A DNA stretch of 64,000 nt from Bacteroidota bacterium (lineage in GTDB: Bacteria > Bacteroidota > Bacteroidia > Bacteroidales > UBA4417). A program made the translations under genes and the position numbers. The DNA lies in assembly GCA_013376995.1 (NCBI GenBank), contig JACAAZ010000002.1, positions 111,917-175,916 on the forward strand. Direction: 5' to 3'. Positions within the stretch are counted from its first letter, which is position 1. Every line of letters begins with the position of its first letter. The notes under the pieces are model-generated. The model was not told the DNA's origin, made no database searches, and saw only the letters and a list, made by a program, of their open reading frames with translations. Shown one piece after another: positions 871 through 3,335 of this stretch.

Positions 871-1901
871 CCGAAAACATTCCATATAAAGAAATGCTTT
901 TTATGTCTTCAGGCTGCCTCACACAAAAGGCTTTGGAAGATATGGCCAGGGGTTCATTGACCGGACAGCAATTTAAAGATGTTCAGGATCACCTGGCAGA
1001 TTGTGATCTTTGTTCAGATGCTCTTGATGGTGTGACAATTTGGATGGGTAAAAAGATTCCGGATATTGAACTTTCTGATCGCCTGAACCAACTCCAAAAC
1101 TCTACTCAAACCCTCATAGAAAATAGAAGGGCAACGTTTACTCCTGCCCGCCGTATACATGGTTATTACAGATGGGCCGCTTTGGCTGCTTTATTTCTGG
1201 TATTTGCCGGAATCTTTTTCCTGGTAAAGGAAAACCCGGTATTAAAGAAGGAATCCATTGCTATGGAAAGGCACAAAAACGCTGATTCCCTGAAGATACC
1301 GGATCAGGTAAACCTCGATAAGAATGAAAAAACGGCCAGGCCTGCTGATGAAAACCTGAATAAAGGGCCTGGTAAATTAAAAACAAGGGTAAAGTTTGCC
1401 GCTCCTGTAATCAAACCCGATGTGGACGTCGTTAAAGAACAAGATGTTTTTAGTTCTGATGATCTTGCATTACCCGAAAAAAAAACGGAACAGGCTGCAT
1501 CAGAATCTATTTCAGAATCTCCTAAGGCCGTTGGGGGAACTAGTGTAAAAACAGCAAGTAGGCTTGTTGCGGAAGAAGTCTATGAAAAACCTTTTACAGT
1601 TGTTGAGGAAATGCCGGCATTCCCCGGGGGAGAAACCAAAATGCTTCAATTCCTTAGAGAGAACATTCGTTATCCTGAGCAGGCAAGGGAAAATTCGATA
1701 AGCGGGACTGTATATGTATCTTTTGTGGTCGGAAAGAATGGTAATATCTCTGATATTAAGATTTTAAGAGGAATTGGGGGTGGCTGTGATGAAGAGGCCT
1801 ATAGGGTTGTTAAAAGTATGCCCGCCTGGATTCCTGGAAAACAAAACGGGAAGGCTGTTCCAACACAATTTAATATGCCTATAATTTTTAAACTCAATTG
1901 A
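867..1901 (+). CDS. Anti-sigma-like membrane protein with C-terminal TonB domain
   Basis: The N-terminus (residues 20-55) carries a zinc-finger anti-sigma signature, HLADCDLC, of the H-x3-C-x2-C type that grips a cognate ECF sigma factor. One membrane segment lies near residues 97-116 (RWAALAALFLVFAGIFFLV). A long charged, low-complexity periplasmic linker follows (about 120-245). The C-terminus (about 245-344) is a TonB-C / energy-transducing domain (PGGETKMLQFLRENIRYP, GTVYVSFVVGKNG, MPAWIPGKQNGKAV). The gene overlaps the sigma gene by four bases, so it is very likely its regulator. The TonB-type domain suggests the sensor end interacts with envelope proteins. Family assignment of both ends is firm; the joint function is inferred. 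Confidence 0.85.
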   Translation: MTENIPYKEMLFMSSGCLTQKALEDMARGSLTGQQFKDVQDHLADCDLCSDALDGVTIWMGKKIPDIELSDRLNQLQNSTQTLIENRRATFTPARRIHGYYRWAALAALFLVFAGIFFLVKENPVLKKESIAMERHKNADSLKIPDQVNLDKNEKTARPADENLNKGPGKLKTRVKFAAPVIKPDVDVVKEQDVFSSDDLALPEKKTEQAASESISESPKAVGGTSVKTASRLVAEEVYEKPFTVVEEMPAFPGGETKMLQFLRENIRYPEQARENSISGTVYVSFVVGKNGNISDIKILRGIGGGCDEEAYRVVKSMPAWIPGKQNGKAVPTQFNMPIIFKLN

Positions 1902-1969
1902 TTGGTTTCTGCATATTTTCAAAAATCTTCTGTTTTATGCTTCAAGAAAAACTCACATGTAATTTTTTG

Positions 1970-1977
1970 TATATTTG
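1970..1977 (+). promoter_or_regulatory. -7 box of the trpB promoter
   Basis: TATATTTG fits TAnnTTTG exactly. A start of transcription near 1984 would give a roughly 170-base leader that contains the Trp-rich leader peptide and the attenuator hairpin before trpB. Confidence 0.5.
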
Positions 1978-2008
1978 TGTATTGAAAACAATTCAATAAA
2001 TGCTTCAT

Positions 2009-2068
2009 ATGATTTCATGTAATTTTTGGTGGTGGCAAATGAATAATTCTCCTGACAGGAACCACTGA
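2009..2068 (+). CDS. trpL: trp leader peptide with three consecutive Trp codons
   Basis: A 19-codon reading frame encodes MISCNFWWWQMNNSPDRNH and ends in TGA at 2066-2068. Three TGG codons in a row (2027-2035) are the hallmark of a tryptophan attenuator. An in-frame ATG at 2000 would add three residues. It lies between a TAnnTTTG promoter and an intrinsic-terminator hairpin, directly upstream of trpB. A ribosome stalled at the Trp codons would leave 2056-2062 (CAGGAAC) free to pair with 2108-2114 (GTTCCTG), the 3' arm of the terminator, so transcription continues. A ribosome reaching the stop codon would cover 2056-2062 and let the terminator form. Confidence 0.85.
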   Translation: MISCNFWWWQMNNSPDRNH

Positions 2069-2097
2069 TCCGTTGCATGTGCAAAAATATTGCCTTG

Positions 2098-2126
2098 GCC
2101 GCAGGAAGTTCCTGCGGCTTTTTTTA
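2098..2126 (+). terminator. trp attenuator (intrinsic terminator in the leader)
   Basis: GCCGCAGGA (2098-2106) and TCCTGCGGC (2110-2118) form a perfect nine-pair stem with a three-base loop, followed by a seven-T run at 2119-2125. It lies about 30 bases ahead of trpB and 30 bases after the leader-peptide stop codon, as in classical amino-acid attenuators. Confidence 0.9.
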
Positions 2127-2156
2127 TTCCTTTTTTAACCTTTAAAACTAAAAATT

Positions 2157-3335
2157 ATGTTCAGAGAAGAGACCATCATTCAAAAAGAAGGCTATTTTGG
2201 CCAATTTGGCGGAAGCTTTGTACCGCCTGTACTAGAAAGCCCGTTAGCACGGCTATCAGAGGCTTTCAATGCTGCAAAGTCAAATCCCAGGTTTATCGAG
2301 GAATACCGGTATTACCTGAAACACTATGTGGGGCGGCCATCCCCTTTGTATTATGCAAAGCGGTTGTCAGAGTTAACAGGCAGCAAGATATACCTCAAAA
2401 GGGAAGACCTTAACCATACGGGTGCTCATAAGATCAATAATAGCCTTGGGCAAATCCTCCTGGCTAACCATATGGGTGCAAAAGAGATCATTGCTGAAAC
2501 TGGAGCGGGACAGCATGGTGTGGCTAGTGCAACAGCTGCAGCTCTTTTTGGTATTCCATGCAAGATCTTTATGGGTTCCCGGGATGCCAAAAGGCAAAAA
2601 CTCAATGTACAACGGATGAAATTGCTGGGGGCAGAGATCATTACAACTGATCAGGGAACAGCTTCATTGAAGGATGCCGTTGATGTTGCACTCGGATACT
2701 ACATTGAACATCCGGATTCATTTTACCTGCTAGGGTCAGCAGTCGGGCCACACCCCTATCCTACCATGGTTAAGTTTTTCCAAAGCATAATCGGGGAAGA
2801 AGCGCGCAAACAGATACTGGAAGCTGAAGGCCGTCTGCCTGATTCAATCTTTGCCTGCGTTGGAGGAGGATCAAATGCAATTGGTTTATTCTCTGCTTTT
2901 CTGAATGACCTGGCTGTGGAAATTCATGCTGCAGAAGGTGGTGGAGAAGGCCCAGGAACTAACAGGAGCGCATCAACACTTGTGCTTGGAAAGCCCACCG
3001 TATTCCAGGGTACCTATTCTTACTGTATAACAGATGCAGATGGACAACCCACAACTGCGTATTCAATTGCATCCGGTTTGGACTACCCCGGGGTCGGGCC
3101 GGAACATGCACACCTGAAAGAAACAGGAAGGGTAACTTACCATTGTATTACGGATGATGAAGCAATACAGGCATTTTACCTCCTTTCAAGGCTCGAAGGA
3201 ATCATCCCTGCCATTGAATCTTCGCATGCCATCGCATTAGCTGCCAAATTCCTGAAGAATAAAAACCAGCTTTCAATTATAAACCTTTCAGGAAGGGGCG
3301 ATAAGGATGTGGAACGCGAAATGGAACATGAATGA
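2157..3335 (+). CDS. trpB: Tryptophan synthase beta chain
   Basis: This is a PLP enzyme that joins indole and serine to make tryptophan, the last step of tryptophan synthesis, normally as an alpha2beta2 complex with TrpA. The length (392 residues) is normal. The PLP lysine is K92 in NHTGAHKINNS, the phosphate-binding loop is GGGSNAIG near residue 235, and the glycine-rich GAGQHGVA segment lies near residue 114. It resembles the TrpB1 type that works with TrpA. No trpA, trpF or other trp gene is adjacent: the unit is leader, attenuator, trpB and a terminator. It is therefore an orphan trpB under its own tryptophan-sensing control; TrpA must be encoded elsewhere or the enzyme works alone on indole. 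Confidence 0.97.
   Translation: MFREETIIQKEGYFGQFGGSFVPPVLESPLARLSEAFNAAKSNPRFIEEYRYYLKHYVGRPSPLYYAKRLSELTGSKIYLKREDLNHTGAHKINNSLGQILLANHMGAKEIIAETGAGQHGVASATAAALFGIPCKIFMGSRDAKRQKLNVQRMKLLGAEIITTDQGTASLKDAVDVALGYYIEHPDSFYLLGSAVGPHPYPTMVKFFQSIIGEEARKQILEAEGRLPDSIFACVGGGSNAIGLFSAFLNDLAVEIHAAEGGGEGPGTNRSASTLVLGKPTVFQGTYSYCITDADGQPTTAYSIASGLDYPGVGPEHAHLKETGRVTYHCITDDEAIQAFYLLSRLEGIIPAIESSHAIALAAKFLKNKNQLSIINLSGRGDKDVEREMEHE

Follow-up and report, generated by a model that had tools for sequence, protein, structure and literature searches.

The region immediately upstream of trpB in the window, i.e., the whole 64,000 nt stretch of Bacteroidota DNA that was analyzed in silico, very probably holds a ribosome-mediated attenuator that, at low levels of charged tRNA-Trp, would turn on a TrpB working independently of TrpA in indole salvage. 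By computable tests it looks like a conserved Trp attenuator of the ribosome-mediated type. Trp attenuators are already known in Bacteroidota (Rfam RF01692, 2010); the solitary-trpB version that a preliminary description of this DNA proposed was not found in print, i.e., titles and abstract openings of the open-licence literature gave no report of an attenuated solitary trpB. On the sequence evidence, the new parts are the gene, which belongs to a solitary and probably salvage TrpB lineage, and the antiterminator geometry. The features of the locus are as follows.

1970–1977, + strand: TATATTTG, a match to the Bacteroides -7 promoter element TAnnTTTG (motif match)
2009–2068, + strand: leader peptide ORF, 19 codons plus TGA (direct reading; start set by the L004/L005 alignment)
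2026–2068, + strand: predicted ribosome-free fold that hides segment A, 2026–2033 paired with 2061–2068 and 2050–2053 with 2057–2060 (RNA fold)
2027–2035, + strand: three adjacent Trp codons, TGGTGGTGG, the predicted ribosome stall site
2056–2062, + strand: segment A, CAGGAAC, the putative antiterminator strand just 5' of the leader stop (covariation, swap test)
2098–2118, + strand: terminator hairpin, GC-rich, with a 9 bp stem and a 3-nt loop (RNA fold and covariation)
2108–2114, + strand: segment B, GTTCCTG, part of the terminator loop and 3' arm, pairs with A (growing-transcript fold)
2119–2125, + strand: seven-T tail of the terminator (direct reading)
2157–3335, + strand: trpB, solitary tryptophan synthase beta subunit, 392 aa (TIGR00263)

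The leader ORF can be read directly, with its start at ATG 2009, 19 codons (MISCNFWWWQMNNSPDRNH) and a TGA stop at 2066–2068. The related leaders L004 and L005 (MINRNFWWW...) align to 2009, so that an in-frame ATG at 2000 was not accepted as the leader start. The terminator hairpin is GCCGCAGGA-agt-TCCTGCGGC. It has a predicted delta G of -17.7 kcal/mol (z -5.68), and none of 200 shuffled sequences is as stable. Segments A and B are perfectly complementary. The preliminary description had proposed all three elements: the 19-codon frame with three adjacent Trp codons proved correct base for base, the hairpin with its seven-T tail is confirmed, and the seven-base pairing is present as described and covaries in relatives. 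Upstream of trpB, positions 367–1901 of the window carry an ECF sigma factor gene and then a gene with a TonB C-terminal domain. The two nearest relatives seem to retain these upstream genes (L004 3930–5123, with TonB_C confirmed; L005 3907–5690, by eye).

In the proposed mechanism, RNA polymerase probably starts near 1985 and the ribosome would begin at 2009. When Trp-tRNA is plentiful, the ribosome would reach the stop at 2066 and cover segment A. With A covered, the terminator and its tail (2098–2125) would fold and transcription would stop before trpB. When Trp-tRNA is scarce, the ribosome would stall at the Trp codons and leave A free. Free A would capture the loop and 3' arm (2108–2114) as these emerge and pre-empt the hairpin, which would permit read-through into trpB. 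The TrpB produced would make Trp from serine and free indole, the source being neighbours or the cell's own tryptophanase. Termination would be the default, since the ribosome-free RNA is predicted to hide A, in a fold whose stability is no better than that of shuffled sequences (z -0.69).

A chance control was made with a simple pattern, i.e., an ORF no longer than 45 aa that contains TGGTGGTGG, followed by a hairpin of at least 8 bp and at least 5 T that starts within 120 nt. With both strands scanned, the window has a single site of this pattern, and 60 simulated windows of 64 kb have none. A stronger control than the pattern scan is provided by the relatives, in which the frame, the terminator and the putative competing pairing are conserved. 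These same three properties support the interpretation as a Trp attenuator that the preliminary description had offered.

The relatives are 64 loci found by scanning public genomes with the window TrpB. The leader count omits five that have less than 400 bp upstream (L016, L033, L040, L060, L061); 52 of the 59 loci kept are from Bacteroidota and 7 are not, as assigned from the record title. In 34 loci, trpB is preceded by a short ORF that has adjacent Trp codons and, after this ORF, by a terminator-like hairpin. Model R1 matches at four further loci (L017, L021, L026, L027), where the leaders are of the W-x-W type (R1 and alignment A1 comprise 31 of 35 leaders, with L011, L032, L039 and L055 left out). 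Among Bacteroidota trpB loci outside Sphingobacterium, a leader with close Trp codons and a terminator is found in 38 of 41, and no leader was found in L006, L042 and L057. Nor was one found in the 11 Sphingobacterium loci or in the 7 loci outside Bacteroidota. The terminator stem covaries, with double-sided changes at five of the nine consensus pairs among 31 aligned leaders.

The Sphingobacterium loci (L046–L053, L056, L066, L067) have a window-like trpB with no Trp leader in the 700 or 900 bp upstream. Three of these genomes were checked (those of L046, L047 and L056), and they have trpA with its own trpB and no tryptophanase match. In L012 the leader and terminator look intact, but the trpB (from 1555) is interrupted near its beginning by a single in-frame TAG.

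The protein encoded downstream of the leader is TrpB1-like, with a score of 537.8 bits to TIGR00263 (cut-off 392.45). It is not a TrpB2, as the score to TIGR01415 is 171.6 bits, under the cut-off of 518.85. The genome of the window (G000) is 5.05 Mb and 96.66% complete and has one trpB over the cut-off. A second trpB was rejected, the other TIGR00263 match being 23.3 bits, below the cut-off. Searches for trpA (TIGR00262) and trpD (TIGR01245) gave no match in this genome and were positive in 14 of 14 control genomes. The preliminary description was thus right that trpB is single, but its wording "far from other trp genes" understates the situation, as neither trpA nor trpD was found in the genome. 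Tryptophanase is encoded (NF053783, 805.5 bits; cut-off 750), and the tnaA gene is at L069 1363–2763 (G000:C40).

A genome survey covered 50 of the 64 loci. In 16 of these genomes with a window-like trpB there is a trpA over the cut-off; each of them carries a further trpB on the contig of trpA, and the window-like trpB is always on another contig. The trpA-side copy in G028 is a fragment at a contig edge (311 bits). The other 34 genomes have no trpA over the cut-off and exactly one trpB, one of them (G046) with a sub-threshold TrpA-like match of 93.6 bits. Perlabentimonas gracilis (L014), a cultured relative, has trpA as well. The pattern is uniform, but single absences prove little, since most of the 50 were assembled from metagenomes and have no stated completeness. 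A maximum-likelihood tree places 57 window-like TrpBs, including that of the window, on one side of a branch (100/99), and the operonic TrpBs of the same genomes fall apart from them; the grouping is partly due to selection, since "solo" was defined as window-like by similarity. The tree leaves out L012, which is shortened by its in-frame TAG, and sets L058, L059 and L062 apart as "other". The Tenericutes L058 and L059, two of the 50, lie just outside the window-like clade. One row labelled operonic (L124) has a very long branch and its placement is unsure. Residues Q284 and C290 are present in all 57 window-like TrpBs, and these positions are mostly H and L in 16 operonic copies. The clade reaches Spirochaetota and Fusobacteriota records (L035, L036, L037, L038), where it is without the leader; gene transfer or a binning error are possible reasons for their placement.

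The solo lineage appears to be uncommon. A trpA over the cut-off is present in 133 of 396 Bacteroidia genomes. That solo trpB would be common among the trpA-less genomes was rejected, as none of 80 sampled genomes without trpA over the cut-off has a trpB (E <= 1e-60).

As a raw count, tryptophanase (NF009709) is found in 39 of the 50 genomes and is absent from 11. It is present in 29 of the 34 genomes without trpA and in 10 of the 16 with trpA. NF009709 is a subfamily model to which related tyrosine phenol-lyases may also score, and it is positive in three of 14 control genomes. TrpB, together with serine, can convert indole to Trp. The available text of PMC11085991 shows trpB-dependent indole conversion in Bifidobacterium, and that of PMC9026213 lists a TrpAB-only variant in gut genomes. 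From the tryptophanase pattern and these precedents for TrpB and indole, the switch may be read as a control of indole reclamation by Trp-tRNA charging.

Stand-alone TrpBs, i.e., LBCA-TrpB, plTrpB and archaeal TrpB2, are active without TrpA, and among solved structures the best match of the window TrpB, itself TrpB1-like and not TrpB2, is the ancestral LBCA TrpB (5ey5). Six LBCA residues, E36, E42, T53, S187, A279 and M280, are tied to stand-alone activity in the available text of PMC11917138. When mapped by alignment, the window TrpB has R, R, S, S, T and Y at these positions, so that one of six, S187, is kept. This low number is in favor of another explanation, in which TrpB has a non-salvage role (e.g., another beta-substitution) or works with a distant TrpA, and the attenuator merely marks a Trp-linked enzyme. 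The lineage signature residues FQGTYSYC and AEGGG in the window-like TrpBs (rows shown) are in its favor as well. It is nevertheless considered unlikely, in that the TIGR00263 equivalog score is well over the cut-off, 34 of the 50 genomes have no trpA over the cut-off, and an attenuator with Trp codons argues for Trp as the product. A TrpB that would act without TrpA on free indole is the preferred reading.

An orphan trpB has been described in Mycoplasma californicum, whose authors call it unusual in prokaryotes (PMC4081997, available text). As in the window, this trpB is found in an amino-acid auxotroph, and synthesis of Trp from exogenous indole is proposed in the same text. The M. californicum gene is unlike that of the window in that no attenuator is mentioned in the part of PMC4081997 available.

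The sequences of the two competing segments differ between genomes, and each A tends to match the B of its own leader. A is the stretch before the leader stop and B consists of the terminator loop and 3' arm, e.g., GAAGAATA with TATTCTTC in L054, TAAGGA with TCCTTA in L063, AGGGAT with ATCCCT in L043 and GCAGGGGG with CCCCCTGC in L041. The fit of each A to its own loop and 3' arm was compared with the fit after swapping between leaders. The main test comprised 11 divergent leaders with TrpBs less than 75% identical, one per identity cluster. The mean duplex energy for own pairs is -11.37 kcal/mol and that for swapped pairs is -8.15 kcal/mol (sd 0.62), and none of 20,000 swaps equalled the own pairs, with shared ancestry only partly removed in this test. 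At looser identity cuts (n of 16, 26 and 32) the result is again 0/20,000; at 70% identity (n = 5) it is weak, with 848/20,000. When A is shuffled rather than swapped, the value is -6.76 compared to -10.2 for own pairs in 31 leaders (the near-copies L005, L010, L022 and L029 were dropped from 35). Thus both properties that the preliminary description had looked to for support, a WWW frame and competing stems that are conserved, are seen in relatives, the first in the 38 of 41 loci above and the second in the swap test.

The signal requires the loop and 3' arm together. The 3' arm alone (1,946/20,000) and the 5' arm with the loop (5,305/20,000) do not carry it. Sliding windows of 14 bases place the peak of the fit to the loop and 3' arm between stop -16 and +1, where two windows have z values of -5.0 and overlapping ones have -2.7, -3.7 and -2.8. 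For this analysis L011, L031, L032 and L044 were excluded for unusual spacing, and one leader per cluster was then taken (22). The reading frame through A varies by species, i.e., CAG GGG in L015 and C AGG in the window. This difference in frame implies that the constraint on A is on the RNA rather than on the peptide.

In E. coli trp, the antiterminator takes up the terminator's 5' arm (2:3 versus 3:4) and a pathway operon is controlled. This is the textbook trp design, and an antiterminator that sequesters the 5' arm has to be considered for the trpB leaders also. The element in the window resembles the E. coli trp leader (RF00513) in its tandem Trp codons, in the logic of the stalled ribosome and in mutually exclusive antiterminator and terminator. 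In the trpB leaders, however, A has no own-versus-swapped signal with the 5' arm (own -6.38, swapped -6.33), and no part of the sequence from the Trp codons to the terminator substantially fits its own 5' arm; the largest z in the sliding windows, -2.5, belongs to the 8 bases immediately preceding the stem and corresponds to only -0.5 kcal/mol. The classical geometry is therefore quite improbable here, although in other Bacteroidia leaders, mostly before trpE and described below, a signal for the 5' arm with the loop is present. Since A fits its own loop and 3' arm and not the 5' arm, the antiterminator would capture the far side of the terminator. The window also differs from E. coli in that control would be of one presumed salvage gene instead of a pathway operon. 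In the Rfam search, RF00513 (Trp_leader) did not reach its gathering score and had no match in the window.

Folding of the transcript is consistent with capture of the loop and 3' arm. In the window, the A:B pairing has the lowest predicted energy for a transcript that ends at 2112, where it is weak and the centroid is unpaired, or at 2114, where it is also the centroid. At full transcript length the terminator replaces it. Growing transcripts folded from the downstream edge of the stalled ribosome have at least three expected A:B pairs in 27 of 35 leaders, and fewer than three in the other eight (L011, L023, L024, L025, L028, L029, L032, L044). The A:B pairing outweighs the complete terminator in L022, L041 and L054, but not in the window or in most others. 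Since the full-length terminator is the more stable in most leaders, the switch, if real, would be mainly kinetic. The half of the folding with the ribosome at the stop is no independent test, since A is absent there by construction.

Leaders of this type are also found elsewhere in Bacteroidia. A scan with model R1 has matches in 92 of 395 genomes at E <= 0.01. This number is not a count of attenuators: among 29 R1 loci besides that of the window, 11 have the match joined to a short ORF in which Trp codons are adjacent, and the remaining loci looked like plain terminators. L074 (MVQSWWRT) is not counted among the 11. Eight of the leaders with W codons and a terminator precede trpE-like genes (L073, L075, L077, L078, L082, L084, L085, L095), where trpE-like denotes a best match to anthranilate synthase component I; all of these matches are below the cut-off and one gene is cut by the contig end. 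A swap test was made with nine of the 11 leaders, seven before trpE-like genes, one before an unknown gene and one before trpB; L079 and L095 were left out as similar to L084. The fit of the loop and 3' arm beats the swaps (5/20,000) to a greater extent than that of the 5' arm and loop (251/20,000). The 5' arm and loop is the stronger partner in five of the 11 (L073, L079, L082, L095, L100).

The known element closest to that of the window is RF01692, the Bacteroidete tryptophan peptide leader. It is the Bacteroid-trp RNA of Table 1 in PMC2864571, where the table as available has "y" for RNA and "y" for cis-regulatory and lists Bacteroidetes. It is from the same phylum and likewise has a leader with Trp codons, after which a terminator begins. 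The RF01692 model stops within the terminator's 5' arm and does not contain the loop and 3'-arm pairing found in the window, and the two elements differ in the gene controlled, which in the window is a solitary trpB. In window positions 1700–2400, RF01692 gives no hit with E up to 1, and in 12 related loci with a window-like trpB nothing reaches its gathering threshold. It does match L100, the leader that precedes trpB in G220, a genome with trpA, at 63.4 bits (gathering threshold 49). The eight leaders before trpE-like genes score below threshold (L085, L073, L078) or have no match at E up to 1 (the other five), so that the RF01692 model seems narrow.

Another explanation is that the hairpin is a mere terminator of the gene with the TonB C-terminal domain (TonB_C, 867–1901), that the trpB promoter is downstream of it and that the WWW ORF is incidental. 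This gene is on the same strand and ends about 200 bp before the hairpin. The W-codon ORF, its spacing, the stop-adjacent A and the A:B covariation are nonetheless conserved, and some relatives with the conserved leader appear to have different upstream genes (by eye). The distance from the T tail to the trpB ATG is only 31 bases, and the promoter-like TAnnTTTG element at 1970–1977 precedes the leader. TAnnTTTG is given as the Bacteroides -7 consensus in the available text of PMC4747536. It is present within 80 nt before the leader ATG, at a variable distance, in 26 of 38 leaders (the window and 37 loci, with L065 left out as too short), where 2.5 are expected from mononucleotide shuffles. A mere upstream terminator is thus very improbable. 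Control of the terminator by another Trp sensor, i.e., a T-box, a TRAP-type protein or a metabolite aptamer, all of which regulate Trp genes in Firmicutes, is hardly credible, as such sensors need no W-codon leader and the Rfam search gave no credible match, the only three with E up to 1 being on the opposite strand, with scores well under the gathering values.

The ribosome-mediated attenuator may tentatively be placed in a wider context, with somewhat less than an even chance of being correct. In this joint reading the system would be a dedicated Trp-indole recycling module of Bacteroidota, consisting of a TrpB lineage without TrpA that is controlled by a Trp attenuator of its own; most of the genomes concerned have tryptophanase. 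Abundant Trp would be degraded to indole, and at low tRNA-Trp charging Trp would be rebuilt from the cell's own indole or that of neighbours. The switch would operate by the non-textbook capture of the loop and 3' arm, and in some relatives a second Trp-rich leader peptide would add to the sensing. Free indole is a widespread bacterial signal. If the reading is true, indole would also be a recoverable store of Trp, and uptake of the indole of others would be predictable from the leader sequence. Capture of the loop and 3' arm represents a testable alternative to the textbook pairing and may help to find attenuators missed by models of the 5' side. The solo TrpB lineage may supply naturally TrpA-free enzymes for biocatalysis.

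The second short Trp-rich ORF is located between the terminator and trpB in 12 relatives and is absent from the window. Its distance to the trpB start in bases is -191 in L007, -304 in L008, -342 in L012, -189 in L034, -196 in L020, -270 in L023, -190 in L025, -213 in L027, -195 in L044, -224 in L015, -222 in L022 and -189 in L031. The leader and terminator scan found no terminator downstream of it. Seven of the 12 have a core of approximately WWRRIQF(L/P)WR. L007 has 3 to 5 changing codons. Codon differences are mainly synonymous in several pairs, e.g., five synonymous and none changing between L008 and L034, which suggests that the peptide is under selection.
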